Below, one piece after another: positions 1 through 11,446 of a DNA stretch of 24,773 nt; position 1 is the stretch's first letter; each line of letters opens with the position of its first letter. The translations under genes and the position numbers were made by a program. The notes under the pieces are model-generated. The model did no database searches. It was not told the DNA's origin and saw only the letters and a list, made by a program, of their open reading frames with translations. The stretch is from a virus. Where the stretch lies: positions 1 to 24,773 of the IMG/VR virus record IMGVR_UViG_3300024433_000049. The stretch is one strand, 5' to 3'.

Positions 1-2
1 CA

Positions 3-740
3 TTCTGTCCTGGAGAGCAAATAAAACAGGCGACCGGGTATTATAAGATCAAAGATTTTTTAACAAAACTTGAAACACTATCAGCGCACACCGTGCAGGT
101 GCAATGGTTTTGTAATAAGATTGGCTCCCCGGATTTAGTTTATAGGGATGAATTCAATGCTGACATTCACTTGCTAACAGTCGATTTCAATCCATCAAAA
201 CAAGTTCATCTCTCAATAGATTGGGGCGGGACTCATCCATTTGCATTGGGAGTGTATCAAGATTACACAGATACCAAGCTTGATGCATGGGTGAAGGTTG
301 ATGAAATTTATGAAAGCAATACAAGCAATCCCCATATAATTGAAATTGCAAAGGGTCGCCCGTGGTGGAATTACATTGACCGTTCCGGCATGGTTTGCGA
401 TCCGTCAAGAAGCGACTTGCGGAGAGAGTGGCAGGCTGCCGGAGTAAGCACAAAAGGCGCCAATAATTCGGTAGAAATCGGGATATCAAGAGTTAGGGGT
501 GCATTGAAACCGGTTTTAGGCAGGCCCAAAATATATATTTCAAACAAATGCCACAATCACATCAGGGAATCTTCGGCATACAAATTAAATAAAAAAGGAA
601 TCCCGATTCAGGAAAATGACCACGCAATGGATGAATTTAGATATTTTGTTATCGAGAAAGTCAACCCAATTGAAAAGAAAAGTAACAAGAAGCCAACCAT
701 GACAAAAAGCAAAATGTATTCCGCAATGAAAGACTTTTAA
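3..740 (+). CDS. Terminase large subunit, C-terminal nuclease part (5' end outside window)
   Basis: This is the end of the DNA-packaging motor protein, which cuts concatemeric phage DNA and drives it into the prohead. The frame is open from the window edge, so only the last 245 residues are visible and the ATPase domain lies upstream. The RNase H-like nuclease fold shows as the first acidic strand HLSIDWGG (Asp about fragment residue 73), a middle segment with MVCDPSR, and the late acidic motif NDHAMDEFRY near the C-terminus. That spacing is typical of TerL nucleases. A GTG at 93 could be taken for a start, but the upstream residues continue the same protein. The portal gene follows after 55 bases that hold a promoter. 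The family call is firm. The subfamily (Mu gp28-like or other) is inferred from the neighbours. Confidence 0.88.
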   Translation, partial: FCPGEQIKQATGYYKIKDFLTKLETLSAHTVQVQWFCNKIGSPDLVYRDEFNADIHLLTVDFNPSKQVHLSIDWGGTHPFALGVYQDYTDTKLDAWVKVDEIYESNTSNPHIIEIAKGRPWWNYIDRSGMVCDPSRSDLRREWQAAGVSTKGANNSVEIGISRVRGALKPVLGRPKIYISNKCHNHIRESSAYKLNKKGIPIQENDHAMDEFRYFVIEKVNPIEKKSNKKPTMTKSKMYSAMKDF

Positions 741-741
741 T

Positions 742-754
742 GTTAAAATTTAAC
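742..754. promoter_or_regulatory. Perfect palindrome GTTAAA-A-TTTAAC upstream of portal promoter
   Basis: A 13-base perfect inverted repeat is centred at 748, 13 bases before the -35 box and 48 bases before the portal ATG. The same palindrome, differing only in the central base, stands at the identical distance from the promoter at 10108. It is probably a binding site for a dimeric regulator. The position just upstream of -35 suits an activator, but a repressor is possible. Confidence 0.6.
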
Positions 755-760
755 AATATG

Positions 761-789
761 TTGAAAAAAAACGAAAACTATCATATAAT
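761..789 (+). promoter_or_regulatory. Sigma70-type promoter for portal gene, leaderless
   Basis: TTGAAA (761-766), a 17-base spacer and a perfect TATAAT (784-789) form a near-consensus promoter. The portal ATG begins at 796, only six bases after the -10 box, where transcription would be expected to start. No Shine-Dalgarno sequence precedes that ATG. Both facts point to a leaderless mRNA. Confidence 0.75.
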
Positions 790-795
790 TACGGT

Positions 796-2160
796 ATGGC
801 AGAATTACAAAAAGCTAATAGCAAGAAAATAGAAGAGGGGATTAATAAAGCTTTTATCTCAGAGGCGTCAAAAATTACAGGGTGGTATGATGAGATGCCA
901 TTCGACCCTAATGAGGTTTTGGGAGTCAGGTCAAGCTTCAAAACTAAAGAAGAGGCTGTGCGGAAAATGGATGAAGGCGATCCGACACTTGCCGGGCTAA
1001 AAGAAACCATGCTTGCTGCAATTTTGGGACAGGCGGATGAAATAAAATCTGATTCAGACGATAAGGGAGAAAAAGAATTTATTGATGAGATGTTTGGAAG
1101 AATTTCAAAATTCAGAGATAAGAAAAAAAATATGCTATCTTCCCTATTTATAGGGAATTCGTTTACCGAATTGATATACGCACAGGAAACCATAAATGGC
1201 CGTACCGTATGGGGGTTAGATGAAAGCTTAGGCGGGCTAATCGTTCGCCCACCATCAAGCTTTTGTTTTAAGCAGAAAGAGGACGGAACATGGGATTTGT
1301 TATACACGCCTTGCGATGGGAATATATTTATTGAATCTTGTTTTGTGGGAAATGAAATAGTTTTAGATTCCAGGAAGTTCAAGGCGATGACATATAATGC
1401 GCAGTTCGGAAATCCTATAGGGCGCGGGATTTACAATGATATTTATAATTATTGGTGGCTTAAGAAAGAAGAGGTCAAGCTGTGGGGATTGCTGGGTGAA
1501 GTTTTTGTATCGCCAAGCAAAATAATAACTAAAAAAGAAAAAGAAGGAAATTTTACCACGGAAGAAAACGAGACACTTGAGGAGTACGGTAATAATCCGC
1601 GAGCAAACACCACCATAATTTTGCCAGATTCACAAGTTGAAGTCGTGTTTCTTAATCAGAATCCAAAAGACCCCGGCGATGCTTACAATAATTTCATCAT
1701 GTTCTGCAGTCTTTCCATGGCATATAGAATCCAGGGGCAGGGATTAGCCCTAAATGAATCATCCGGCAGCCAGGCTAAGGAAAAAGTCAGGATGAAACTA
1801 TTTAATTACCTAACTCAATCCTATATCAAAAGTTTTGAAGATTTTATAAATGATGAAATTATAAAACAGCTCTGCGATCTTAATTTTGAAAACCCTGCCT
1901 ATCCAAAATTTTCAATAGTATTACCGGAAGCCCCGGATCCGAAAGAATGGGTTGAAGCCATGGAGAAAGCGACAGCATTGGGTGCGGAAATACCACGGGG
2001 ATGGTTTGAAGATAAATTGGGCATACCGGATCAGAAGGACGGAGAAGATATATTGAAGGTTCCTGAAAAGCAGACCAGCCAGACGTTTGCTAAGTATTTA
2101 GAAGACATAGAAGAGAGGATGCAGGTATATTTTCGAGATGAAAAATATCTTACTGAGTAA
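796..2160 (+). CDS. Phage portal protein (Mu gp29/DUF935-like)
   Basis: The product is a 454-residue portal, the dodecameric ring at the capsid vertex through which DNA enters and to which the tail joins. Family features are an acidic helical N-terminus, the segment FIGNSFTELIYA followed by a wing region with GLDESLGGLIVRPPSSF, the NPIGRGIYNDIYNYWWLKK stretch (portal proteins typically have NPxGxG plus an aromatic helix here), and a C-terminal helical domain with IKQLCDLNF and a DKLGIP-type end. It sits directly after the terminase, as expected. The ATG at 796 has no ribosome binding site and lies at the predicted transcription start. The residues after about 420 (KYLEDIEERMQVYF) form a short charged tail. 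The portal call is strong; the DUF935 assignment is from memory of the family pattern. Confidence 0.85.
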   Translation: MAELQKANSKKIEEGINKAFISEASKITGWYDEMPFDPNEVLGVRSSFKTKEEAVRKMDEGDPTLAGLKETMLAAILGQADEIKSDSDDKGEKEFIDEMFGRISKFRDKKKNMLSSLFIGNSFTELIYAQETINGRTVWGLDESLGGLIVRPPSSFCFKQKEDGTWDLLYTPCDGNIFIESCFVGNEIVLDSRKFKAMTYNAQFGNPIGRGIYNDIYNYWWLKKEEVKLWGLLGEVFVSPSKIITKKEKEGNFTTEENETLEEYGNNPRANTTIILPDSQVEVVFLNQNPKDPGDAYNNFIMFCSLSMAYRIQGQGLALNESSGSQAKEKVRMKLFNYLTQSYIKSFEDFINDEIIKQLCDLNFENPAYPKFSIVLPEAPDPKEWVEAMEKATALGAEIPRGWFEDKLGIPDQKDGEDILKVPEKQTSQTFAKYLEDIEERMQVYFRDEKYLTE

Positions 2161-2164
2161 ATAA

Positions 2165-2189
2165 ATTTACTTCCAGGCCATAAGTAAAT
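2165..2189 (+). terminator. AT-rich hairpin after portal gene (possible weak terminator)
   Basis: ATTTACTT (2165-2172) pairs perfectly with AAGTAAAT (2182-2189) around a 9-base loop. It starts five bases after the portal stop and ends 11 bases before the next promoter, so it may separate the two transcription units. The stem is AT-rich and no clear U-run follows, so termination would be weak. Confidence 0.3.
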
Positions 2190-2200
2190 AATCTTTAGTG

Positions 2201-2229
2201 TTGAAATATTAACATAATTATGTTATAAT
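2201..2229 (+). promoter_or_regulatory. Promoter of the HTH/accessory operon, with 16-bp operator palindrome in its spacer
   Basis: TTGAAA (2201-2206), 17 bases and TATAAT (2224-2229) form a near-consensus promoter. The spacer contains the perfect palindrome TAACATAATTATGTTA (2210-2225), which runs into the first two bases of the -10 box. A protein bound there would block RNA polymerase, so repression is the natural reading. An ATG at 2236 lies six bases after the -10 box, again giving a leaderless arrangement. Confidence 0.72.
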
Positions 2230-2235
2230 GGATAT

Positions 2236-2271
2236 ATGAAAAATAATTTAGGGAGCAAATATGACACTTGA
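2236..2271 (+). CDS. 11-residue leader peptide, leaderless
   Basis: The short ORF MKNNLGSKYDT begins at the predicted transcription start of the promoter at 2201. It reads through the GGGAG (2251-2255) that serves the next small ORF and stops inside that ORF (TGA 2269-2271). Ribosomes on this peptide would therefore pass over the next ribosome binding site, a layout that fits translational coupling. Whether the peptide has any function of its own is unknown. Confidence 0.4.
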   Translation: MKNNLGSKYDT

Positions 2272-2317
2272 TGAAATAGGAGAAAACATTTCACGGAAAT
2301 TAAGGAGCAAGAAATGA
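2261..2317 (+). CDS. 18-residue peptide overlapping the HTH gene
   Basis: MTLDEIGENISRKLRSKK has a proper ribosome binding site (GGGAG, five bases before the ATG). Its stop codon overlaps the start of the HTH gene in an ATGA arrangement (2314-2317). It also carries the AAGGAG (2302-2307) that serves the HTH gene. The peptide is basic at its C-terminus. It may be a translated leader or a real micro-protein. Confidence 0.4.
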   Translation: MTLDEIGENISRKLRSKK

Positions 2318-2541
2318 GCCAAGCATTCACTAACTGGATTCAACAAAAAGAGAAAGAACGCTATTTCGTATATGAGATAGCAGAAATGGCCGGGCTTTCC
2401 TGGTCAACATTCAGGCTACATCGGGAGCCAGGAAAAGTCAAGATGAGTAAAAAGACAGCATTGAAAATCCATGAAGCAACCGGTATTAGCATGGAAGATT
2501 TGGGGTTTGCTGAATTATTGAGAGATCAAGGGAGATCGTGA
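2314..2541 (+). CDS. Small helix-turn-helix DNA-binding protein
   Basis: This 75-residue protein resembles small Cro/CI-type regulators. Residues about 17-45 (FVYEIAEMAGLSWSTFRLHRE) fit a helix-turn-helix with the turn at AGLS, and residues 47-64 (MSKKTALKIHEATGISMEDL) resemble the following helices of an XRE-like fold. The start at 2314 is supported by AAGGAG six bases upstream and by the ATGA overlap. It is the first substantial gene after a promoter with a palindrome in its spacer, so it may repress its own operon. It is also the only candidate DNA-binding regulator visible for the shared palindromes at 742 and 10089. Both roles are inference. Confidence 0.6.
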   Translation: MSQAFTNWIQQKEKERYFVYEIAEMAGLSWSTFRLHREPGKVKMSKKTALKIHEATGISMEDLGFAELLRDQGRS

Positions 2542-2873
2542 TGTGCAATGCGATAATTACAGATAGTGAATATGAATATCGAGAAGCGAAAGAAAGATAC
2601 TGGCACCTTACAAAAGACATACATAGGGATTTGATTGATCTGTTTTCACGTGCATCAAAAATTACACACATATATGATAAGAATGGAGACTTCTGTAAGT
2701 TTGGATATAACAAAGAAACTCAAAACAAAATTGATGAATTGCGTAAATTTGATAAAATTGCATTTGGTATATGCTTTAGGAAACTTTTAGACAGAGATAG
2801 GAGCGGGGAGCCGATAGGCAAATCACCCAATGAGTTGCTGGGGTGGGTGGATGAAAAGGAGGTAGGGAAATGA
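2541..2873 (+). CDS. Hypothetical protein, 110 residues
   Basis: No family is recognised. The N-terminal half is rich in charged and aromatic residues with predicted helices (EYEYREAKERYWHL, HRDLIDLFSRASK). A segment IYDKNGDFCKFGYNKETQNKIDELRKFDK follows. AAGGGAG (2528-2534) is better spaced for the ATG at 2541 than for the GTG at 2538, which overlaps the HTH gene stop. The gene ends with an ATGA overlap with the methyltransferase gene, so the two are probably co-translated. Confidence 0.65.
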   Translation: MCNAIITDSEYEYREAKERYWHLTKDIHRDLIDLFSRASKITHIYDKNGDFCKFGYNKETQNKIDELRKFDKIAFGICFRKLLDRDRSGEPIGKSPNELLGWVDEKEVGK

Positions 2874-3322
2874 CCAAAATCAGAGGTTACGCAGCCATAG
2901 GGCTTTATTCCCCACAAAACGATCTAAATGTAGGCGCAGCCATGAGAGCCGTTGGTTGCTACAGGGCTGCGTTTTTGGCTATATCCGGCGGCAATGCCGA
3001 TAAGTGCGGGGCGACCGATACTGCGAGTATGTGGCGGGATATTCCGTTTATCAGGGTGGACGATCTGCACAATATAATTCCCTATGATTGCATACCGGTT
3101 GCCGTTGACCTGGTGGACGGAGCCGAATCGTTAATTGATTATAAGCATCCTGAACGGGCATTTTATATTTTCGGCCCGGAAAACGGAACGCTTAGCAAGG
3201 GTGTAATCTCATGGTGTCGGGACAAGGTCATGATTCCGACTTGCGATTGCATGAACTTAGCCGCAACGGTCAATGTAGTACTATATGACCGAATGGCGAA
3301 AAGGCAAAGGGAGGTAGCATGA
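2870..3322 (+). CDS. SPOUT (TrmH/SpoU-like) RNA 2'-O-methyltransferase
   Basis: At 150 residues this is close to the minimal TrmL-type SPOUT enzyme, which forms a dimer with a trefoil knot and transfers a methyl group from S-adenosylmethionine to a ribose 2'-OH, usually in tRNA or rRNA. The three family motifs are present: motif 1 at residues 20-27 (NVGAAMRA, with the Asn and the Arg expected to be catalytic), motif 2 at 101-106 (FGPENG) and motif 3 at 122-140 (IPTCDCMNLAATVNVVLYD). The usual Ser-Leu-Asn of motif 3 reads Cys-Met-Asn here, keeping the Asn. The start has a clear AGG-rich ribosome binding site and overlaps the upstream stop. The RNA target cannot be read from sequence. A host-modification or anti-defence role is speculation. 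Confidence 0.82.
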   Translation: MTKIRGYAAIGLYSPQNDLNVGAAMRAVGCYRAAFLAISGGNADKCGATDTASMWRDIPFIRVDDLHNIIPYDCIPVAVDLVDGAESLIDYKHPERAFYIFGPENGTLSKGVISWCRDKVMIPTCDCMNLAATVNVVLYDRMAKRQREVA

Positions 3323-3609
3323 AAAAAATAACGAGCTACATAATGGGTTGGATTGCGCACTTTGGATTAAGGTTAACCTGCCGCTACCTATGGCACAAGA
3401 TAAGGCTATTTTTTAAATACGGCACATTCAGGCTGCACAAACAGGGTCTTATTGAAACCAAAAGAGAATACCAGCGGCTTCAAAAGGCTCTTTGTGAACT
3501 GATAATCGGAGGTAATGAAGCTTGTGGGGCACTAAAAGGAGTTGGAATTCAACTCGATAAACTTGCGAAATATACAAACCAAATACGCTGGCCTGGATTC
3601 AGATGCTAA
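3319..3609 (+). CDS. Hypothetical basic protein, 96 residues
   Basis: No family is recognised. The N-terminus (residues 1-35) is basic and amphipathic with many aromatic residues (YIMGWIAHFGLRLTCRYLWH), which could associate with a membrane but is not a clean transmembrane helix. The middle (residues 45-66) is a helical charged stretch with EYQRLQKALCELI. The start overlaps the methyltransferase stop by four bases (ATGA) and is preceded by GGGAGG, so translation is probably coupled to it. Confidence 0.6.
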   Translation: MKKITSYIMGWIAHFGLRLTCRYLWHKIRLFFKYGTFRLHKQGLIETKREYQRLQKALCELIIGGNEACGALKGVGIQLDKLAKYTNQIRWPGFRC

Positions 3610-3794
3610 GATTAACGGGTGAAAATTACGAAATTGAAGGTGTGTTATGTTTTTCTGCATTTAGCCCAGAGTGTGAGTTCGATGCGGAACCTACCTGCAG
3701 GCCGGGGTGGCTTGAAAAACTAAAGGGTATCAATACTAATGATAATTACGAATCATTGTTGGCAGGTTTAATAACAGGGGCAATTGATGAATAA
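3603..3794 (+). CDS. Hypothetical acidic protein, 63 residues
   Basis: No family is recognised. It overlaps the previous gene by seven bases and has no clear ribosome binding site, so translation is likely to depend on coupling. The sequence is acidic and holds two cysteines near its centre (CFSAFSPECEFDAEPTCRPGW has a CX7CX7C-like spacing). It ends with LLAGLITGAIDE. The stop region contains the ribosome binding site of the next gene. Confidence 0.5.
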   Translation: MLRLTGENYEIEGVLCFSAFSPECEFDAEPTCRPGWLEKLKGINTNDNYESLLAGLITGAIDE

Positions 3795-3804
3795 GGAGGT
3801 AATC

Positions 3805-4068
3805 ATGCCATATAATTGTAGATGCGGTTTGATTGCGGTCAATGATTTTGTTGCAAGGCCTGAAAAAAATCATAAAATAATAATTAGGAATACTGAAAAT
3901 GATAATGAGATTGTGGATGAGATCAGTGCGACTGCAAGTAAAGTTGATAAATTTTTTAATCAGTCAGAGAAAATATCTTTTAATTTTGGCGGTGAATTGA
4001 GAATTGTTGAAAAGCAAGAATTGATTGACGATAAACTTACTTGGTACATAAGCACCGTGAGGCCATAA
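3805..4068 (+). CDS. Hypothetical protein, 87 residues
   Basis: No family is recognised. The frame is open from an ATG at 3784, but the strong AAGGAGG at 3793-3799 and the ATG five bases later at 3805 fix the likely start. The first residues, PYNCRCGL, have two closely spaced cysteines. The rest is a mixed beta/alpha pattern ending in LTWYISTVRP. Its stop overlaps the start of the next gene (TAATG). Confidence 0.6.
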   Translation: MPYNCRCGLIAVNDFVARPEKNHKIIIRNTENDNEIVDEISATASKVDKFFNQSEKISFNFGGELRIVEKQELIDDKLTWYISTVRP

Positions 4069-4232
4069 TGGAAACTATGGAATATTATCCCTACCAATGG
4101 GTTAAGTGTGATCATTGTAAAAAAACCATTATCGTCGGCAGTATGGACTGGTTTCCCATGTCGGAAACTACAGGCGCGCCACTTTGTTATAAATGTTGCC
4201 ATAAAAAGATTAATCGGAAGTTAAGAAAATAA
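4068..4232 (+). CDS. Small zinc-ribbon protein, 54 residues
   Basis: Two CxxC pairs, CDHC early and CYKC late, are about 30 residues apart, as in a treble-clef or zinc-ribbon fold binding one zinc ion. The C-terminus is strongly basic (CHKKINRKLRK), which suits nucleic-acid contact. The frame is open from 4041, but the ATG at 4068 (GAGG upstream, overlap with the previous stop) is the better start. Role unknown. Confidence 0.6.
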   Translation: METMEYYPYQWVKCDHCKKTIIVGSMDWFPMSETTGAPLCYKCCHKKINRKLRK

Positions 4233-4266
4233 ATGGAGTGGCAAGCAATGAGGATAAAGTAAGAAA

Positions 4267-4458
4267 ATGAAAAAACGGAAAAAGCATAACAAGAAAATAA
4301 TTAAAGACCTTTATTCATGGTTGCATGAACGTGGCGAAATAGGGAACGCAGACCTGGAAGACAAGCCCAAAATTGATAATAGTTGCGAGATTCCGGTACA
4401 TAATTTTCGACCCGAACTATTCGCCCCAGGCAATGTAAAGGATCATTTTGAGTATTAG
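4267..4458 (+). CDS. Hypothetical protein, 63 residues
   Basis: No family is recognised. The first 15 residues are almost entirely basic (MKKRKKHNKKIIKDL), and the rest is acidic to neutral with several prolines. A ribosome binding site is poorly defined (AAGTAAG just upstream), so the start is less sure than for its neighbours. Nine bases separate it from the exonuclease gene. Confidence 0.5.
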   Translation: MKKRKKHNKKIIKDLYSWLHERGEIGNADLEDKPKIDNSCEIPVHNFRPELFAPGNVKDHFEY

Positions 4459-4467
4459 GAGAAAAAA

Positions 4468-5013
4468 ATGAACTTATTTTTCATAGACACGGAAACGACC
4501 GGATTCGATCCAAAGAAACATGAGATTTTTGAACTTGCTTTTACAATCGAAATTGATGGAGTAACGCATTGCAAAATGGAGTTATTTATGCGCCCGGAAA
4601 AGTGGGATAATATAAGCGAAAAGGCTCTTGCGGTTAATGGATGGACGGTGGAGAAGTTGAGGGCATTGCCGGAAAGATCGCAATTCCATAAACTATTCCG
4701 ATCTATACCGTTATTTTCTCCGCCGCTAACTATAGTCGAATACAGCAATAAGTTTGATTATAAATTCTTAAAAGCATTTCACAAAGAGACTGTTGGTGAG
4801 CGTGATTTTAATTTAAATTTCAAAAAGCAATCAATCAATGTTCTTTCCCTTGCAAAAAAGAAGCTGCCCGGCTTGAAATCTCATTCTCTTAAATCGGTGG
4901 CAAGGCATTTAGGTATCCCGGCAGATGATAGTAAGCTGCACGGTGCAGGGTATGATCGGGATTTATTGATGCACGTTTACCATAAATTGAAATACAGGAG
5001 GGATAAAAAGTGA
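4468..5013 (+). CDS. DnaQ-like DEDDh 3'-5' exonuclease
   Basis: This 181-residue protein has the full DEDDh exonuclease signature: ExoI at residues 7-12 (DTETTG, acidic D7 and E9), ExoII around 94-97 (NKFD) and ExoIII with H158, A160 and D163 (HGAGYD). The family uses two metal ions to remove nucleotides from 3' ends of DNA or RNA. The polymerase III epsilon subunit, RNase T and many stand-alone phage enzymes belong to it. The length fits a bare nuclease domain. AGGAG lies well placed before the ATG. Being among head genes rather than replication genes is unusual. It could trim host or phage nucleic acid, or act in repair. Its substrate is not readable. Confidence 0.85.
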   Translation: MNLFFIDTETTGFDPKKHEIFELAFTIEIDGVTHCKMELFMRPEKWDNISEKALAVNGWTVEKLRALPERSQFHKLFRSIPLFSPPLTIVEYSNKFDYKFLKAFHKETVGERDFNLNFKKQSINVLSLAKKKLPGLKSHSLKSVARHLGIPADDSKLHGAGYDRDLLMHVYHKLKYRRDKK

Positions 5014-5210
5014 AAATTGAGATAACGCTTTATTTCAGCGGCTATAAAAAGCGGGATGAAATTGAGGAATCATGGTATAGGTATTTTAAAATTCTCGGCT
5101 TAAGTTTCAAGAGAACCCAAACGTCACGTGGCGATTTTTTCGATATTTTTGTGGAGCTACTTGGGTTTGATTTTATATTGACTATTAAGTGGAATCAAAA
5201 ACATAAGTAA
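5010..5210 (+). CDS. Hypothetical protein, 66 residues
   Basis: No family is recognised. It begins with GTG, overlapping the exonuclease stop (GTGA), with AGGAGGG about seven bases upstream. The pattern of aromatic and charged residues (FSGYKKRDEIEESWYRYFKILGL) and the strands near the end (FVELLGFDFILTIKW) suggest a small alpha/beta protein. Coupling to the exonuclease gene suggests, but does not prove, a related role. Confidence 0.55.
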   Translation: MKIEITLYFSGYKKRDEIEESWYRYFKILGLSFKRTQTSRGDFFDIFVELLGFDFILTIKWNQKHK

Positions 5211-5235
5211 TGAGTATTCAAAAAAGGAGAAATAA

Positions 5236-5523
5236 ATGAGCAATCCAACAAAGAAACCAAAACCACCGGTTGAAGAAAAACCAAATATTTCTATAAGTAA
5301 AATAATTAATGAAAAATTTGAAAAGAAATTAGTCGAATTGGTAAGTGAATATTACAGGATACCGACTGGTATAATTTATCACCTTTCTCCCTATATGTCC
5401 GATACTGAAAATTACATCAAAATCAATTTCCCGGCGAAAGCCAAAGCCGAAAGAGAGCATGGAGATAGCCATGTTTTTTATACCGATAAATACGGAAAAG
5501 TTGAAAAAAATCCCGGTTCATGA
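5236..5523 (+). CDS. Hypothetical protein, 95 residues
   Basis: No family is recognised. It starts after AAGGAG with standard spacing. The N-terminus is Pro/Lys-rich and probably unstructured (NPTKKPKPPVEEKP). A helix (IINEKFEKKLVELVSEYY) and a region ending in HVFYTDKYGKVEKNPGS follow. Confidence 0.6.
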   Translation: MSNPTKKPKPPVEEKPNISISKIINEKFEKKLVELVSEYYRIPTGIIYHLSPYMSDTENYIKINFPAKAKAEREHGDSHVFYTDKYGKVEKNPGS

Positions 5524-5568
5524 CATAATGAAGACATGAATAACGAAAACAAATCAAAGGAGTAAAGG

Positions 5569-5817
5569 ATGATAATTCTAAAAATTATTTTAGTTTTGTG
5601 TGTTGCGGAAATTTATCAAATCGTAATTTTGACAATTGCGAACCGGGTTGATAGGTTAAATCATGGCTTATATGATTATTTTTATGATAAGCATGGCTCT
5701 GGTAATAAAGAAAAATCAATGAGAGAAAGAATCAAAACTGATTATGTCCGCCGACTGGTAGCTACTTGTATATTCTCAATTTTCTTGGCATATAAAACGG
5801 TTTGGTTTTTGTGGTGA
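5569..5817 (+). CDS. Small membrane protein with two hydrophobic segments
   Basis: The 82-residue product has hydrophobic stretches at residues 2-24 (IILKIILVLCVAEIYQIVIL) and about 63-81 (LVATCIFSIFLAYKTVWFLW), joined by a highly charged loop with KEKSMRERIKTDYVRR. This is a two-pass inner-membrane topology, with the basic loop likely cytoplasmic. AAAGGAG lies before the ATG inside a nine-codon ORF (5536-5565, MNNENKSKE). A holin is one possibility, since two-pass holins are of this size, but no endolysin gene is beside it and the segments are not typical, so function is left open. Confidence 0.5.
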   Translation: MIILKIILVLCVAEIYQIVILTIANRVDRLNHGLYDYFYDKHGSGNKEKSMRERIKTDYVRRLVATCIFSIFLAYKTVWFLW

Positions 5818-5820
5818 GGC

Positions 5821-6081
5821 GTGAAAGCTAAAGCAACATATGGTAGTAATTTTAAATCAGAATTGGTTGAAATTGGTGATATAAAGATTGGTGATATTTA
5901 TAGGGATAAGAATTTATGTCCAAATTGCAGGCAGCAAATGAATGAAATTTCAATACCACAGACAGGCACCACATCCACAACGAATGATGGTTTAGAAAGA
6001 TTTCAATGCCCCAATTGCCTAAGTGTAGTATGTATGAGTAGGCCAGTTAAAACTAAACGGAGGAGTTTAGTCAGTGCCTAA
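5821..6081 (+). CDS. Zinc-ribbon protein, 86 residues
   Basis: Two CPNC motifs about 30 residues apart (residues 33-36 and 64-67) form a classic zinc ribbon. The GTG start lies three bases after the membrane-protein stop, with only a weak GTGAGG upstream, so the start is uncertain. The C-terminus is basic (PVKTKRRSLVSA) and overlaps the next gene by eight bases. A nucleic-acid-binding role is possible but not shown. Confidence 0.6.
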   Translation: MKAKATYGSNFKSELVEIGDIKIGDIYRDKNLCPNCRQQMNEISIPQTGTTSTTNDGLERFQCPNCLSVVCMSRPVKTKRRSLVSA

Positions 6082-7117
6082 AATATCAAAAGGAATCCGT
6101 GCCCTCGAAACCATAGGAACCAGGGCTATCAATGTGGCTATTCCACTATATGGAAAGCAGACCAACCAATGGATAAAAGATGTTGAATCACAAATGGAAA
6201 GTTACGATGATTTTGACAAGCTTGAACTAACCCCACTATCAGACAAAATCAGAAATACTATTGAGAGAACCTTGCTACTATCATATTTAATTGGAAATGG
6301 GTTTGCTGAAGAGGATAAGGAGATCGAGGAAAAGAAAGATAGCCAATCCGGGTTCATATTTGATTTTATAGCCAAAAGGCAGATACAAGAGAGACAATAT
6401 GATTTTGCAATAGTTACTAAAATAGATTGGAGAATAACCGGCTTTGACCGTGCCTTAGAATTATTGAAAAACAAAACGGTTATCCCGGCTAAAGTTTTTA
6501 AGGCCGCTTCCGCCTGGATAAAATCAATAGCGTTTTCAGTACAAAGATTAGAAGACCTGAATGCCATCAGGCTAATAAAAGAATCTATCAAGAGTTCAAT
6601 CGATTCGGGTGTAGTATTTCGTGATTGGAAAAATATGGTGTTGCCTGATATATTCAGGAAAGCAGGTTATATCAAATCTAAGGCTTTGAAACTTGAACCC
6701 TGGCACCTGGAGACCGTATTCCGCACCAATCAATCAAGCGTCTATAATTCAGCACGTTTTGAAAACTTTACGAGAGATCAAAACATTGCAGCCATGGAAT
6801 ATCGGGCGGTGTTGGATGACCGGACGCGACCGGAACATGAAGCGCTTGATGGGTTTATTGCCCCTAAAGACGCGCCGATATGGGCAGATATATATCCCCC
6901 TAACGAGTATAGTTGCAGATGTACGGTAGTGCCGGTAACTATTGCCGGACTAAAATCAGGTAGGCAAAAAATATCCACAATAACTCCAAAAATAAATACT
7001 GCTAAATCAGGAGTGCATCCTGACTTCCGGGGTAAGGCAAATCTGAAAGCTATTGATGCAAGGTTGAAGAAGGCTGAAAAGGTTAAAATTAAAGAGATTG
7101 ATAAGATTGAGATTTAA
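6074..7117 (+). CDS. MuF-like minor head (head morphogenesis) protein
   Basis: The 347-residue product belongs to the SPP1 gp7/Mu gpF family of minor capsid proteins, which bind the portal and are carried into the head. The C-terminal MuF domain is clear: FRTNQSSVYNSARF at residues 216-229, then YRAVLDDRTRPEHEALDG at 243-260, and NEYSCRCTVVPV at 277-288. The N-terminal half is helical and variable, as usual in the family. The start is GTG with GGAGG about ten bases upstream. In Mu this gene directly follows the portal. Here about 3.9 kb of small accessory genes lie between them. Confidence 0.85.
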   Translation: MPKISKGIRALETIGTRAINVAIPLYGKQTNQWIKDVESQMESYDDFDKLELTPLSDKIRNTIERTLLLSYLIGNGFAEEDKEIEEKKDSQSGFIFDFIAKRQIQERQYDFAIVTKIDWRITGFDRALELLKNKTVIPAKVFKAASAWIKSIAFSVQRLEDLNAIRLIKESIKSSIDSGVVFRDWKNMVLPDIFRKAGYIKSKALKLEPWHLETVFRTNQSSVYNSARFENFTRDQNIAAMEYRAVLDDRTRPEHEALDGFIAPKDAPIWADIYPPNEYSCRCTVVPVTIAGLKSGRQKISTITPKINTAKSGVHPDFRGKANLKAIDARLKKAEKVKIKEIDKIEI

Positions 7118-7575: not shown

Positions 7576-7824
7576 TTGGGCCTAATGAAAGATGAAGCTA
7601 TGGAGCTAACTGAAATGGCAGATGGGCTGCCTATCGAAGCGGATGATTTTGACCGCGACATATTTTTCGGCATCATGGGTGATTTCAATAACTTATTCCT
7701 ATATTATTTCCATGATGAATTTTTGAAGAGATCGGCTAAGGAAAGGCAGGATTTATTTAAAGTTTCACTAAGAAGGATTGACGAACTGCTTGTTCAAATT
7801 CACCTCGAATCCATAAACAGTTGA
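7576..7824 (+). CDS. Acidic hypothetical protein, start uncertain, possible 3' gene fragment
   Basis: An acidic helical protein of about 80 residues (MELTEMADGLPIEADDFDRD and onward). Candidate starts are TTG at 7576 and ATG at 7585, neither with a well-spaced ribosome binding site. The frame is open upstream to 7513 and reads AKFIELERNAIREGELVF, which looks coding. It may therefore continue the 7374 ORF through a +1 shift. Its last 25 bases overlap, tail to tail, the end of the leftward gene at 7800. Confidence 0.45.
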   Translation: MGLMKDEAMELTEMADGLPIEADDFDRDIFFGIMGDFNNLFLYYFHDEFLKRSAKERQDLFKVSLRRIDELLVQIHLESINS

Positions 7825-8075
7825 ATCTCATGGCTAATCACTTTCTTGACGCTTGGCAATAAATCATGAAATGAATAAACTATATCGACGATAGAATTTT
7901 TTAGCAGTACAACAAAATAAGCTTGAAATAATCCGCTTTCATTATCAACATGAAATGATACATATAGATCGTCTGAATATTCTAACCTATAGGCCGTCAC
8001 TGTACCAGATGCCGTCTTGCCGGTAACTCTCGGCTTAGTCACCATTATTTTGTCTATGATTTGTTGTTTAGTCAT
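7800..8075 (-). CDS. Hypothetical protein, 91 residues, last gene of leftward cassette
   Basis: No family is recognised. The N-terminus is helical (MTKQQIIDKIMVTK), and beta-like strands follow (YRLEYSDDLYVSFHVDN, LFQAYFVVLLKNSIVDIVY), suggesting a small alpha/beta fold. GAGAAAAG lies before the ATG. Its 3' end overlaps the rightward gene at 7576-7824 by 25 bases, so the two opposing operons converge with no space for a separate terminator. Confidence 0.6.
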   Translation of the reverse strand: MTKQQIIDKIMVTKPRVTGKTASGTVTAYRLEYSDDLYVSFHVDNESGLFQAYFVVLLKNSIVDIVYSFHDLLPSVKKVISHEIQLFMDSR

Positions 8076-8120
8076 TTTTTATCTTTTCTCATAAATATTT
8101 ATAATCACTCCACCATAAAG

Positions 8121-8807
8121 TCATGACTGCTCGTTTTCTCCTTTAACCCTTATTAATTCATTGCCTGATTGCAATATGCGGACATCGTTCTCTTTAAAAT
8201 CAAATAATTTTGAAATTCCATTGAATTTTGCCTTTTTTGCGAAGTTTTCAATTCGATATTCCCTCACCCATTCTTCCGATTCATCACAAACTATGCAGTC
8301 CGCGTATCCATCAAATTTTACTTGATAAAGACTTGCGAGTTCATTATCGATTTTTATTTGTTTGCTTTCCGTCACCATCCACGTGCCGTTCCCCTTTCCA
8401 ATAATTGTTAGCAAGTTAGTTGCACTTGAATTGAATAATTCGGTAATCAGCTTGGTTTCAAATTCATTTTCAAATATTTCATAAATTTCGCCATCTGATT
8501 TATCTGTCCATAAATATCTTGAAATTTCGGAAAATCTTTTTCCTTTACTTTGCGCAATAACCCTTACAAATCTTTTAACTTTATCAATAGCGGCTTGTGG
8601 CGTAGATTCATAGAGATCATCCCCATCTAACTTTTTGGTAATATTGATAGTGAGTAGGTTAAGCGTTTCGGATATACCACAGACCCATGAATGGCCGATA
8701 GAATCGTCGTCATTCATGATTTTTTTTTCAAAAAGCCATTCACTAACTATTTCTTCAATTTGCCTTTTATTAAAGTCAACTCTTGTTTTTACTCTTATTC
8801 TTTTCAT
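8121..8807 (-). CDS. Hypothetical protein, 228 residues
   Basis: This is the largest gene of the leftward cassette and no family is recognised. It starts after AAGGAG. Visible features are a basic N-terminus (KRIRVKTRVDFNKRQIEEIVSEW), several beta-rich stretches (LLTINITKKL, LLTIIGKGNGTWMVTE), a two-cysteine segment YADCIVCDES, and a C-terminal region ending in VKGENEQS. There are no transmembrane segments and no signal peptide. Nine bases separate it from the upstream gene. Confidence 0.6.
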   Translation of the reverse strand: MKRIRVKTRVDFNKRQIEEIVSEWLFEKKIMNDDDSIGHSWVCGISETLNLLTINITKKLDGDDLYESTPQAAIDKVKRFVRVIAQSKGKRFSEISRYLWTDKSDGEIYEIFENEFETKLITELFNSSATNLLTIIGKGNGTWMVTESKQIKIDNELASLYQVKFDGYADCIVCDESEEWVREYRIENFAKKAKFNGISKLFDFKENDVRILQSGNELIRVKGENEQS

Positions 8808-8816
8808 TTTTTCTCC

Positions 8817-9152
8817 TTATATTTTTAGATGATTCCTGATTTTACTAAAAACAAGGTTCTGTAGAGATTTGCTGAGGTCATAAAAACAACATTGCCTGGC
8901 ATATTTCCTGAGATGTTTATTTTTTTCAGTAATAGCAATTGGATAAAATTCACATGTATCGAACCTGCGGCATGACTTATCAATGCTAAACGTTAAATGT
9001 ATGTTATTGGTTAAAATCATTCTGTACCAAATCAAAAGTTTATCGGTGTATGATCTTTTAATCTTTGCGTTTTTTATCATTTGTTTATCTATCACAATGC
9101 AGTAGCCATCGTTTTTATATTTGATCTTTTCGTTTATTATGATGATAATCAT
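8817..9152 (-). CDS. Hypothetical basic protein, 111 residues
   Basis: No family is recognised. The frame is open five codons further upstream, but GGAGG followed by seven bases and an ATG at 9152 fixes the start. It begins with an isoleucine-rich strand (MIIIIINEKI), is strongly basic, and has five cysteines, including CRRFDTCEFY and QCCFYDLSK. Cysteine spacing does not match a zinc motif I know. It starts two bases after the upstream gene ends, whose last codons hold the ribosome binding site. Confidence 0.55.
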   Translation of the reverse strand: MIIIIINEKIKYKNDGYCIVIDKQMIKNAKIKRSYTDKLLIWYRMILTNNIHLTFSIDKSCRRFDTCEFYPIAITEKNKHLRKYARQCCFYDLSKSLQNLVFSKIRNHLKI

Positions 9153-9154
9153 AG

Positions 9155-9370
9155 TTATTCCCTCCACCCATCATAAATTTCAAGCCAAAATTTATAATCA
9201 GATTCGGGTTCATGTCTAATTATCAAATCATCATTCCTGGACAGTTCGATTAATTCATTAAGTTCGTTTATTTCAATTTCCCATGATTCACCTTTAGCTG
9301 TAGCATTCTCATATGGCTTCGGTGGGTTCCCGAAAAATCCGTCCGACGTTCTGCCTATTCTGAATTTCAT
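9155..9370 (-). CDS. Hypothetical acidic protein, 71 residues
   Basis: No family is recognised. The N-terminus, MKFRIGRTSDGFFGNPPKPY, is followed by an acidic helical part (EIEINELNELIELSRNDD) and a beta-like end (YKFWLEIYDGW). The start overlaps the upstream 36-codon gene (ATGA) and has AAGGG upstream. Confidence 0.6.
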   Translation of the reverse strand: MKFRIGRTSDGFFGNPPKPYENATAKGESWEIEINELNELIELSRNDDLIIRHEPESDYKFWLEIYDGWRE

Positions 9371-9477
9371 GATTTACCCTTACTGCAAACGGTTCTCATT
9401 TCTTCATCAATTTGACTGCAAACATTATCTTTGTGGACTTTTAGTTTTTCGCAAAGTTCTATTTTAATCCATTTCAT
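9367..9477 (-). CDS. Very small hypothetical protein, 36 residues
   Basis: The ORF reads MKWIKIELCEKLKVHKDNVC and ends in CSKGKS. It has an AAGGA ribosome binding site, overlaps the upstream gene by 14 bases and overlaps the next gene in an ATGA arrangement. This tight fit within the operon argues for real translation. It contains three cysteines and is basic. No family is recognised. Confidence 0.5.
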   Translation of the reverse strand: MKWIKIELCEKLKVHKDNVCSQIDEEMRTVCSKGKS

Positions 9478-9895
9478 TTTTGCTGTCCTTTGATTCCTTT
9501 ACCAGACAGGTTGGCCCTAAATATTTATTGTTAATGTAGGCTGCACCATTTTTTACTTCAATAACCGGAGGCATAAGTTTTTCATCCGGTTCGTTTATTC
9601 TTGCCCAATGAGATGCATCGTTTATTTGCCAGTCGTGGCCGTGTGCTGAATGCCATACCCGGCCAGTCTTATGATTTAAGTATTCCGCTTTGTTAAAATC
9701 CCCTATACTCGGTATCCATATCATTACCTTATCAAAAAAATTAGGCATTTTGCACCCCTCTTCGATCTTAATCCAGGGGATTCCGATTTGAATGAGTTTA
9801 AAATCTTTTATAGTGATAACAGCTTGTGGCTTGTTAATTAGATCAATTAGTTTTCTAATTTGGCCTATTTTTGATTTTCCTTTAAATACGCTCAT
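9464..9895 (-). CDS. DUF551-like domain protein, first gene of leftward cassette
   Basis: The 143-residue product contains, in its middle (about residues 58-100), the pattern VMIWIPSIGDFNKAEYLN, then W-H, then INDASHWARINEPD. It resembles the small DUF551 domain found in many phage accessory proteins (W-x-P early, a strand with VWHSAHG, then HW and a Pro end). The frame is open to a GTG at 9985, but the ATG at 9895 has a perfect TTAAGGAG site, so it is preferred. The molecular role of DUF551 proteins is not known to me. Confidence 0.6.
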   Translation of the reverse strand: MSVFKGKSKIGQIRKLIDLINKPQAVITIKDFKLIQIGIPWIKIEEGCKMPNFFDKVMIWIPSIGDFNKAEYLNHKTGRVWHSAHGHDWQINDASHWARINEPDEKLMPPVIEVKNGAAYINNKYLGPTCLVKESKDSKNEMD

Positions 9896-9981
9896 TTTAT
9901 TTCTCCTTAAATTGACGGCAAATAAGCCAGCGGCCATAATGGTCAGGGGTTTAATCCCCAAGCAAACACAGGCGCCCATGT

Positions 9982-10002
9982 TCACACTGACTCATTTACC
10001 AT
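9982..10002 (-). CDS. 6-residue leader peptide of leftward cassette, leaderless
   Basis: MVNESV begins five bases after the -10 box of the leftward promoter, in the same GGGTATGG context as the rightward leader at 10143. Its stop overlaps an in-frame GTG (9985) of the long open frame leading into the DUF551 gene. So short an ORF could occur by chance. Its position is the argument. Confidence 0.3.
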   Translation of the reverse strand: MVNESV

Positions 10003-10007
10003 ACCCA

Positions 10008-10036
10008 ATTATAATATAACTCCCTCGAAATGTCTA
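10008..10036 (-). promoter_or_regulatory. Leftward promoter of the reverse-strand cassette
   Basis: Read on the minus strand, TAGACA (10036-10031), 17 bases and a perfect TATAAT (10013-10008) form a good promoter. A minus-strand ATG begins at 10002. An ATCGTTAAA half-site lies upstream of the -35 box at 10056-10048. About 107 bases separate that leader ATG from the DUF551 gene start and contain a short GGGG-CCCC hairpin (9946-9959). Confidence 0.68.
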
Positions 10037-10047
10037 AAAAAACTATT

Positions 10048-10123
10048 TTTAACGATATTCCAGATAAGGCAGCAATTTAAAATATATCGTTAAAGTTTAA
10101 CAATAAGTTGACAAATCGTTAAA
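10048..10123. promoter_or_regulatory. Cluster of ATCGTTAAA half-sites in the divergent control region
   Basis: The 9-mer ATCGTTAAA occurs three times in 76 bases: on the minus strand at 10048-10056 and on the plus strand at 10086-10094 and 10115-10123. The second copy is also the left arm of the palindrome at 10089-10101, and the third lies in the spacer of the rightward promoter. One protein binding these sites could activate one direction and repress the other. Confidence 0.5.
10089..10101. promoter_or_regulatory. Perfect palindrome GTTAAA-G-TTTAAC upstream of protease-operon promoter
   Basis: A 13-base perfect inverted repeat, centred 13 bases before the -35 box and 48 bases before the leader ATG. 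It is the same as the element at 742-754 except for its centre, and the flanking AATA-N-GTTGA also matches. The shared block covers 25 positions with 22 identical. Confidence 0.62.
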
Positions 10124-10136
10124 ATTAGTTTATTTA
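10108..10136 (+). promoter_or_regulatory. Rightward promoter of protease/capsid operon, leaderless
   Basis: A perfect TTGACA (10108-10113) is followed after 17 bases by TATTTA (10131-10136), a poor -10 box. An alternative TTTATA lies two bases further on. An ATG begins at 10143, six bases after the -10 position. The weak -10 box fits a promoter that needs an activator, for which the adjacent palindrome is well placed. Confidence 0.6.
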
Positions 10137-10142
10137 TAGGGT

Positions 10143-10220
10143 ATGGTGATCGAAGTTAAAGAAAATGCAATACGTGCAAGGGTATATAATTCAGCAGGCC
10201 ACCGACTGGAGGTTGCATGA
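10143..10220 (+). CDS. 25-residue leader peptide ahead of protease/scaffold gene
   Basis: MVIEVKENAIRARVYNSAGH and five further residues are encoded from an ATG at the expected transcription start, with no ribosome binding site. Its stop overlaps the next start in an ATGA arrangement (10217-10220), and its last codons contain the GGAGG (10208-10212) serving the next gene. It probably acts as a translated leader or coupling peptide. A function for the peptide itself cannot be excluded. Confidence 0.45.
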   Translation: MVIEVKENAIRARVYNSAGHRLEVA

Positions 10221-11446
10221 AAAAATTAGTTGATTTTGAGTTTTTTGAAGAAGGGGACTATCGACACAAAAACCCGGCACTTGACAACGGCAAGTGGACG
10301 GAAGCAGATTTCAAAAAAGCCCACGCATACCTACAGGCAATAAACAAAGGAATCCCGGTTATACTAAACCCAAAGGATGCCCATGAAACTGAGGACAAGG
10401 ACAATGTTGCCGTCCTGGGGCGCATTAAAGAAATATGGCGGAAACCCAATGGTGTATGGAGCGGTAATGGCGAATTCTTGGAAGAAGTTGCGGATATTAT
10501 TGAGAAAAAAATGTATGATGGCAAATCTATCGGGATAACAAGAATGAAGAATGGCGATATTGTAATAGATCACATCGCCCTGTGTGGTGCGCAAAGAGCA
10601 TATCTTGAACACCTTAAGCCGAACAGTCAATCTATATTCGATTCAAGTAGATTAAAAAAATTAACGCAAGTTCAATTATTTTCATCTCAAAGCGAAGGTG
10701 ATGAAAATATTGAAATAGATTTTCGCCTAAGCGGTGGCGAAAGTGATAATGATTCAAGCGCGAATCAGGGAAATGAAGAAGGGAATCAAAGTGGTGATTC
10801 TAAAAAAACTAAAACCAAGAAAAAGGAGACAAAAACAATGAGTGATTATACAGAAGCAGATGTTAAGTTAAAAGTAAGAGAGGCGACTGATGCCCAAATA
10901 AAAGAATCACAAAGGGACGCCGACGACATTAAAAGGAAATTTACCTTAACGATTGAGGGGAAAGATACCGAAATCGGAAAGAAAGATAAGGACATAGATG
11001 CGAAGAACAACGAAATCACCTTATTAAAAGATACGATCAAAGACAAGGATGAAGAAATCAAAGGGTTTACAACTACCATTGCAGATAAAGATACCGAAAT
11101 CAAAACCCTAAAAACCAACTTTGCCAAACGCGAAGAGGATAATGTAAAACGCGAAGTAGGCTATTTCGTCCATAATTGCAGCGCAATCCCGCCCGTTGAA
11201 AAACCTGCCAAATTCAAAATGCTTTTCACGATTAGGCAGCAGAGCAAGGAAGCCTATGAAGATATGAAAAAAATAATTGGTGGAAGCGGAAACCCCCTTG
11301 CTTTCGGATTAGACAAAAACTTTACGACCGGTTCCGGCGAATACTCCGAAATCGTGAAAGAGTTTTCCGATAATTCCGGGAACGTTGGTCTTGAAATTGA
11401 CATGACGGCACTAAGCGATGAAGCACTGAAAGTTTTAGAGCAGTAA
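10217..11446 (+). CDS. Prohead protease/scaffold fusion (Mu gpI-like)
   Basis: This 409-residue protein has the layout of Mu-type gpI: an N-terminal prohead protease domain (about residues 1-145) and a C-terminal scaffold. The N-domain ends in GKSIGIT and IDHIALCGAQRAYLEHLKP, which resembles the conserved hVALTxxPAIxGLKP stretch of phage I proteins. The catalytic residues cannot be assigned safely. Residues 165-207 are a charged low-complexity linker. Residues 250-298 form seven consecutive heptads with Ile at the same place in each (253, 260, 267, 274, 281, 288, 295), a coiled coil. Protease and scaffold normally shape the prohead and are then degraded. The gene has GGAGG four bases before the ATG and precedes decoration and capsid genes, as expected. 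Confidence 0.7.
   Translation: MKKLVDFEFFEEGDYRHKNPALDNGKWTEADFKKAHAYLQAINKGIPVILNPKDAHETEDKDNVAVLGRIKEIWRKPNGVWSGNGEFLEEVADIIEKKMYDGKSIGITRMKNGDIVIDHIALCGAQRAYLEHLKPNSQSIFDSSRLKKLTQVQLFSSQSEGDENIEIDFRLSGGESDNDSSANQGNEEGNQSGDSKKTKTKKKETKTMSDYTEADVKLKVREATDAQIKESQRDADDIKRKFTLTIEGKDTEIGKKDKDIDAKNNEITLLKDTIKDKDEEIKGFTTTIADKDTEIKTLKTNFAKREEDNVKREVGYFVHNCSAIPPVEKPAKFKMLFTIRQQSKEAYEDMKKIIGGSGNPLAFGLDKNFTTGSGEYSEIVKEFSDNSGNVGLEIDMTALSDEALKVLEQ
10838..11446 (+). CDS. Internal in-frame scaffold protein, 202 residues
   Basis: Met208 of the protease/scaffold gene has its own AAGGAGA (10823-10829), nine bases before the ATG, placed exactly at the boundary between the linker and the scaffold domain. A second, shorter scaffold-only product from the same frame is therefore likely, as for Mu gpZ within gene I and Nu3 within lambda C. 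It contains the seven-heptad coiled coil and the C-terminal capsid-binding part. Confidence 0.62.
   Translation: MSDYTEADVKLKVREATDAQIKESQRDADDIKRKFTLTIEGKDTEIGKKDKDIDAKNNEITLLKDTIKDKDEEIKGFTTTIADKDTEIKTLKTNFAKREEDNVKREVGYFVHNCSAIPPVEKPAKFKMLFTIRQQSKEAYEDMKKIIGGSGNPLAFGLDKNFTTGSGEYSEIVKEFSDNSGNVGLEIDMTALSDEALKVLEQ

Follow-up and report, generated by a model that had tools for sequence, protein, structure and literature searches.

Shared GTTAAA elements as putative operators at two head-gene promoters of an uncultured virus

Introduction

One of the closest described systems is the late control of bacteriophage Mu, in which the late promoters (lys, I, P and mom) share a dyad for the C protein upstream of the -35 position, gene I being needed for head synthesis and possibly encoding a scaffold (PMC4461284, PMC4287176). 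A second point of comparison is the leaderless messenger RNA: a TANNNT hexamer some 12 bp ahead of the start codon is a published signal of bacterial leaderless genes (PMC3160421), phage transcripts are often leaderless according to PMC5312081, and cI and cro of phage PY54 are known leaderless phage mRNAs (PMC4488713). Within the terms searched, no report was recognised in the literature of the element described below, or of a portal gene with a leaderless mRNA among bacterial phages.

The locus considered here belongs to an uncultured virus with tailed-phage genes, and the window (the whole stretch analysed, 24,773 bases) carries Mu-like head genes; it is one complete virus record, but probably only part of the genome. 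Its sequence suggests that one candidate regulator times capsid building through sites common to two head promoters.

Gene content and setting

The window opens with a terminase gene, cut off by the left end and terminating at 740, followed by the portal gene (796-2160, plus strand; Portal_Mu, 454 aa; Pfam PF06074, E 7.1e-45), which has no Shine-Dalgarno sequence, and it also encodes an F-like protein and a gpT-like major head protein. The genes separating portal from F include, unusually for a head-gene region, a SpoU-type RNA methylase (2870-3322, 2.4e-12) and an RNase_T exonuclease (4468-5013, 5.4e-16). The minus strand from 7800 to 9985, which separates F from the protease region, carries a block of short leftward genes, the first of them starting at 9985; the two of their proteins compared with PHROGs or Pfam gave no match.

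On the plus strand, an ORF of 25 aa (10143-10220), probably leaderless, overlaps with its stop the start of the next gene (10217-11446), labelled head maturation protease/scaffold by position: its product has no direct protease family match, and the gene at the same place in contig L033 matches head maturation protease phrog_976 (1.6e-25). The 25-aa ORF is a truncated counterpart of an 80-82-aa gene found in two related contigs (L004, 8866-9108; L035, 970-1218), shortened in the window to 25 codons, with resemblance limited to the first ~16.

A block shared by the portal and pre-protease promoters

Immediately after the terminase end and before the portal gene lies a palindrome, GTTAAAATTTAAC (742-754, plus strand), at -54 to -42 of the portal promoter, whose -35 box TTGAAA (761-766, plus strand; 5/6 consensus) and -10 box TATAAT (784-789, plus strand) are separated by a spacer of 17. 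A second copy, GTTAAAGTTTAAC (10089-10101, plus strand), is intergenic, between the leftward block and the protease region, and occupies -54 to -42 of a promoter with the -35 box TTGACA (10108-10113, plus strand; 6/6 consensus) and the weak -10 box TATTTA (10131-10136, plus strand; 3/6), the portal -10 being perfect and the protease one weak, as the initial annotation had described them. The agreement at 22 of 25 bases that it reported between 742-766 and 10089-10113 is borne out, and is the only such pair of 25-mers in the window; the equal spacing also holds, with 13 bases from palindrome centre to -35 and 48 to the ATG at both promoters. The second ATG (10143) is that of the 25-aa ORF, which overlaps the start (10217) of the gene previously taken as the protease gene.

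How unusual is this block? The exact palindrome GTTAAANTTTAAC has only two matches in the whole 24,773-base record, at 742-754 and 10089-10101. The initial annotation had named a palindrome common away from promoters as fatal to its reading, and the window holds no such further copy. The exact motif was found twice in 0/300 dinucleotide shuffles. Perfect 13-bp odd palindromes in general are ordinary (6 observed, shuffle mean 8.8), and some palindrome arm occurred twice in 24/300 shuffles. Some pair of 25-mers with at least 22 matches arose in 16/237 shuffles, so that the block pair, taken by itself, departs only mildly from chance (about 7%). It is judged real because it sits at two promoters in one register and is conserved in relatives.

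Conservation and specificity

The portal proteins of contigs L004 and L005 are 64% and 63% identical to that of the window, and in both contigs GTTAAAATTTAAC is as far from the portal start as in the window; they are counted as one lineage, since they are 97% alike over the shared terminase-portal block. Between the window and L004, the portal promoter is identical at 13/13 palindrome, 6/6 -35 and 6/6 -10 positions, with lower conservation in the spacer (9/17) and in the six bases before the ATG (2/6), while third codon positions agree at 65/150 in the terminase block and 107/262 in the portal block (~41-43%). This conservation settles the reality of the element. It also bears on the idea that one promoter was duplicated from the other as a cassette, with no regulator reading the block: 22/25 identity and the same spacing are what a copy would leave, but identity ends at the edge of the block, spacers and -10 boxes being different, and the palindrome is kept at 13/13 in a lineage that has retained so little at third codon positions, which makes copying very unlikely.

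The palindrome, with at most one mismatch, is present once in L004, at the portal promoter, and is absent across the 58,507 bases of G001 (contigs L038-L040). The ends of G001 overlap L004 by 1,502 and 107 bases at 100% identity, so that together they nearly close the genome of this relative, probably ~66 kb and circular or circularly permuted, and the palindrome is found once there, at the portal. The broader pattern TTTAAC-N4-8-GTTGA is confined to the two promoters in the window, L004, L005, L035 and G001, and is absent from the parts read of the more distant relative G003 (L033, L041). Both promoters, portal and pre-protease, likewise contain TTTAACAAT-N2/3-GTTGA in the window and its relatives, with no further copy in these records. 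In G003, whose terminase is 47% identical to that of L004, the element is absent and the portal start has a Shine-Dalgarno sequence.

In the viral contig collection, 38 stretches match TTTAACAATN2-3GTTGAMAAA (the motif in its final form was settled after inspecting the data); of these 38 stretches, five (L003, L004, L005, L035 and L036) come from this lineage, with six sites, and the other 33 have a -10 of at best 4/6 and encode no relative (tblastx, 1e-6). An earlier pattern scan returned 30 stretches, with this promoter only in L003, L004 and L005. L003 is a near copy of the first 7 kb of the window (1-7023; 99.5%, 9 gap bases), probably a strain variant. The element is therefore carried by only two independent lineages, window/L003 and L004/L005/L035/G001. 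Searches for further relatives by portal protein in genome contigs or by major head protein in viral contigs gave none, a search with the F-like protein returned only the near copy of the window, and in the phage collection the DNA search had no match and protein searches gave only 22-34% matches; no host was found either. The specificity of the element also concerns the proposal that the regulator reading it belongs to the host and not to the phage: no phage candidate is convincing, which leaves room for a host protein, but in the records read the palindrome and TTTAAC-N4-8-GTTGA are confined to two head promoters of the lineage, and a host origin is hardly credible. Sites of the Rex type and of the Mollicutes C-protein type (PMC5282649) were compared and set aside, showing only loose likeness.

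GTTAAA units around the pre-protease promoter

The pre-protease region carries more than the palindrome. A 22-nt inverted pair, 20/22 complementary, has its left arm at 10035-10056 (minus strand) and its right arm at 10115-10136 (plus strand), 58 nt apart, with the palindrome 10089-10101 between them. The right arm covers the -35/-10 spacer and contains the site GTTAAAATTAGTT (10118-10130, plus strand), conserved in L004, L035 and G001; the left arm contains the site GTTAAAAATAGTT (10041-10053, minus strand), upstream of a divergent leftward promoter, TAGACA-17-TATAAT (10008-10036, minus strand), located 5 nt before an ATG (10002). This promoter, at 10036, apparently serves the leftward block 7800-9985. 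The initial annotation mentioned neither the spacer site nor the divergent site, nor the leaderless geometry discussed below.

At the pre-protease promoter of L004, L035 and G001 the full palindrome is absent and its right arm TTTAAC is kept, within TTTAACAATATAGTTGACAAATCGTTAAA, which is conserved among the three and has one base fewer in the window. Upstream of the -35, their minus strand reads GTTAAAAAAAGTTTAT, which repeats the spacer element exactly in inverted orientation; in L004, the resulting 19-nt inverted pair (18/19, arms 11 nt apart) brackets the -35. The 22-nt pair of the window and the 19-nt pair of L004 were each obtained in 0/60 shuffles. In these relatives the -10 is TATATA at a spacer of 17, or TATAAT/TATAAA at a spacer of 19. 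The initial reading, that of a dedicated regulator of structural genes, is thus supported in one respect, the element being shared by, and specific to, the two promoters. It is not supported in another: what relatives conserve at the protease promoter is not the palindrome with its fixed spacing, since they have there an inverted GTTAAA element and one extra base before the -35.

Read across these sites, the common unit is GTTAAA, often ATCGTTAAA, with ATC preceding it in most copies, and the palindrome GTTAAANTTTAAC reads as two GTTAAA units face to face. The window has three copies of TCGTTAAA, all within 70 bp of the pre-protease region, where base composition predicts ~1.4 for the window as a whole; the two copies of L004 are both at these promoters, portal and pre-protease, and in G001 one copy lies there and three do not. 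Of the longer form GTTAAANNNAGTT, the window and L004 each have two copies, all of them in the pre-protease region; in G001 there are two inside this region and two outside it.

The A/T-rich composition of these stretches could also correspond to an UP element contacted by the alpha subunit of RNA polymerase, the palindrome being incidental. The upstream 25 bases are A/T at 20-22 positions, and scoring from -59 to -38 against the Estrem consensus gives 11-12/14 upstream of the relative's protease promoter. However, the palindromes themselves score 7-8/14 on the same consensus, a value equalled at 10-22% of all positions, the high score of the relative stems from an arm of its 19-nt inverted repeat, and an UP element explains neither why G and C are conserved at the ends of the palindrome nor the spacer site; this explanation is considered improbable. 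For the relative's protease site, reading it as a degenerated palindrome or an UP element was rejected, its minus strand being the inverted GTTAAA element.

Leaderless geometry

In both window promoters the -35 box stands at -35 and the -10 box at -12 from the ATG, and there is no Shine-Dalgarno sequence; because of this exact register, the portal and pre-protease mRNAs are probably leaderless. A third promoter of this type in the window, TTGAAA-17-TATAAT-6-ATG (2201-2238, plus strand), precedes a small helix-turn-helix (HTH) gene, opens on an 11-codon ORF (ATG 2236), and has no palindrome. The same -35/-12 register is found at the portal and F promoters of L004, the L004 terminase ATG follows its -10 by 5 nt, and the L004 pre-protease ATG by 7 or 5 nt, according to the -10 chosen.

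When strong promoters are defined as 5/6 in both boxes, an ATG lies exactly 6 nt after the -10 in 3/13 of those in the window (mean 0.16 and maximum 2 over 100 shuffles) and in 8/35 in the relative (mean 0.49, maximum 3), with no clear excess in the outgroup G003 (2/27; mean 0.4, maximum 3). Looser boxes give a weaker peak at 6 nt, and the window's pre-protease promoter, although in this register, is outside the 13 since its -10 is only 3/6. A Shine-Dalgarno sequence of at least 4 nt precedes 0/8 leaderless-type starts, versus 27/39 other starts. Eleven leaderless-type promoters, of 15 listed, were checked from -60 to the ATG and contain neither GTTAAA nor TTTAAC. In G001, two TTGACA promoters facing each other, at 22818 (minus strand) and 22836 (plus strand), overlap within an inverted repeat, TTGTCAACA...TGTTGACAA; of the two, the rightward promoter is of the leaderless type, before an 82-aa ORF, and the pair resembles a phage genetic switch.

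Candidate regulators

The protein first proposed to bind the operator, a small HTH protein of 75 aa (2314-2541, plus strand), was modelled with AF2 from a 3-sequence alignment as five helices (pLDDT 78.5; the other four models, 61.7-65.3). Foldseek gave weak matches to SinR and to the 434 and lambda repressors, the best E being 0.07 (SinR), and Pfam a weak one to HTH_26 (E 0.086). The corresponding L004 protein shares 28% identity with it and has SNNTYQQA in place of SWSTFRLH in predicted helix 3. This protein is unlikely to be the operator binder, because the operator is the same at 13/13 positions in L004 while the protein and its recognition helix diverge. L004 encodes a second HTH protein (1817-2026), matching a PHROG transcriptional repressor (2.9e-4); the equivalent part of the window's own genome lies outside the record.

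A phage activator of the Mu C/Mor type, binding a dyad near the -35 and turning on late promoters, would account for the shared dyads as in Mu, and the weak -10 of the window protease promoter is in its favour. In Mu, the late promoters depart from consensus and Pm has no -35; here, good -35 boxes at both promoters (TTGAAA, 5/6; TTGACA, 6/6) and a perfect portal -10 speak against activation, as does the presence of one site within the protease spacer. The dyad centre at -48, leaving 6 bp clear before the -35, also differs from the Mor centre at -43.5 (PMC4287176). Neither the Mor/C family (PF08765) nor Ogr/Delta (PF04606) was matched in any of six records, most of which are fragments; the Mor/C search was positive in a control genome, and two of the records, G001 and L004, nearly cover the relative. 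Activation of this kind is thus held to be unlikely. Membership of the Mu C/Mor promoter class was rejected, with no homologue found and the -35 and dyad position unfitting, and that of the P2 Ogr/Delta class was rejected on the 0/6 result.

A putative regulatory circuit for capsid genes

The preferred reading, to which we give about an even chance, is that the blocks are operators of one sequence-specific regulator, probably phage-encoded and more likely a repressor, acting on two leaderless promoters. The regulator would recognize the GTTAAA unit (often ATCGTTAAA), presented either as the perfect palindrome GTTAAANTTTAAC at -54 to -42, just upstream of the -35, or in the protease region as a longer non-palindromic form, GTTAAANNNAGTTT, with one copy on the -35/-10 spacer and an inverted partner upstream of the -35 (in relatives) or upstream of the divergent promoter (in the window). 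The controlled promoters would be those of the portal operon and of the small gene plus protease operon, in both of which the RNA would start at the A of the ATG. A protein on the protease spacer would block polymerase, and at the portal promoter the palindrome would abut the polymerase footprint, hindering RNA polymerase from its upstream edge; the head genes would stay off until late in infection, when the regulator would be removed.

Repression is favoured because the best-conserved site on the protease side lies inside the promoter. Several points weigh against the preferred reading: the sites of repressors commonly reach into the core promoter, whereas that of the portal stops 6 bp short of the -35, and the portal promoter has the palindrome and no spacer site, so that the two promoters are built differently. 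The restriction of the element to two lineages, its absence from G003, the chance of about 7% for the 25-mer pair and the refinement of the motif on the data also count against it. Sequences, geometry, conservation and specificity are established; binding, the sign of regulation, start sites and timing are inferred.

A broader and more tentative proposal, which we hold as possible but doubtful, is that of a new late-gene regulon in which leaderless head operons would be gated by a putative regulator reading GTTAAA arrays of two kinds: the compact palindrome of 13 bp, and inverted pairs of 19-22 nt that flank the promoter or lie next to it. Portal and protease/scaffold would be timed together, and terminase and F would not; the terminase and F genes of the relative also have leaderless-type promoters.

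If true, capsid assembly in this uncultured phage lineage would be governed by a control circuit that is compact and open to testing, in which structural operons begin with leaderless messages and the choice of start is tied directly to portal translation. It would also mean that a fixed sequence in one genome changes shape in a relative, from palindrome to inverted pair, the recognition unit persisting.

Comparison with known systems

The resemblance to Mu C and Pm-Mor lies in several late or head promoters, including that of gene I, a head gene analogous to the genes apparently controlled in this virus, which share a dyad upstream of the -35 under one phage regulator. The differences are the good -35 boxes, the dyad centre at -48, the spacer site, the probably leaderless mRNAs and the Mor/C homologue not found. 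Lambdoid CI/Cro switches such as that of PY54 have, in common with this locus, short palindromic operators, divergent promoters and, as predicted here, RNA starting from the AUG (PMC4488713); they differ in that portal and protease, not repressor genes, would be controlled here. Finally, bacterial leaderless genes share with this virus a -10 whose first T is at -12 and the lack of a Shine-Dalgarno sequence, whereas the genes concerned here are those of phage head operons and their leaderless starts are predicted from sequence.
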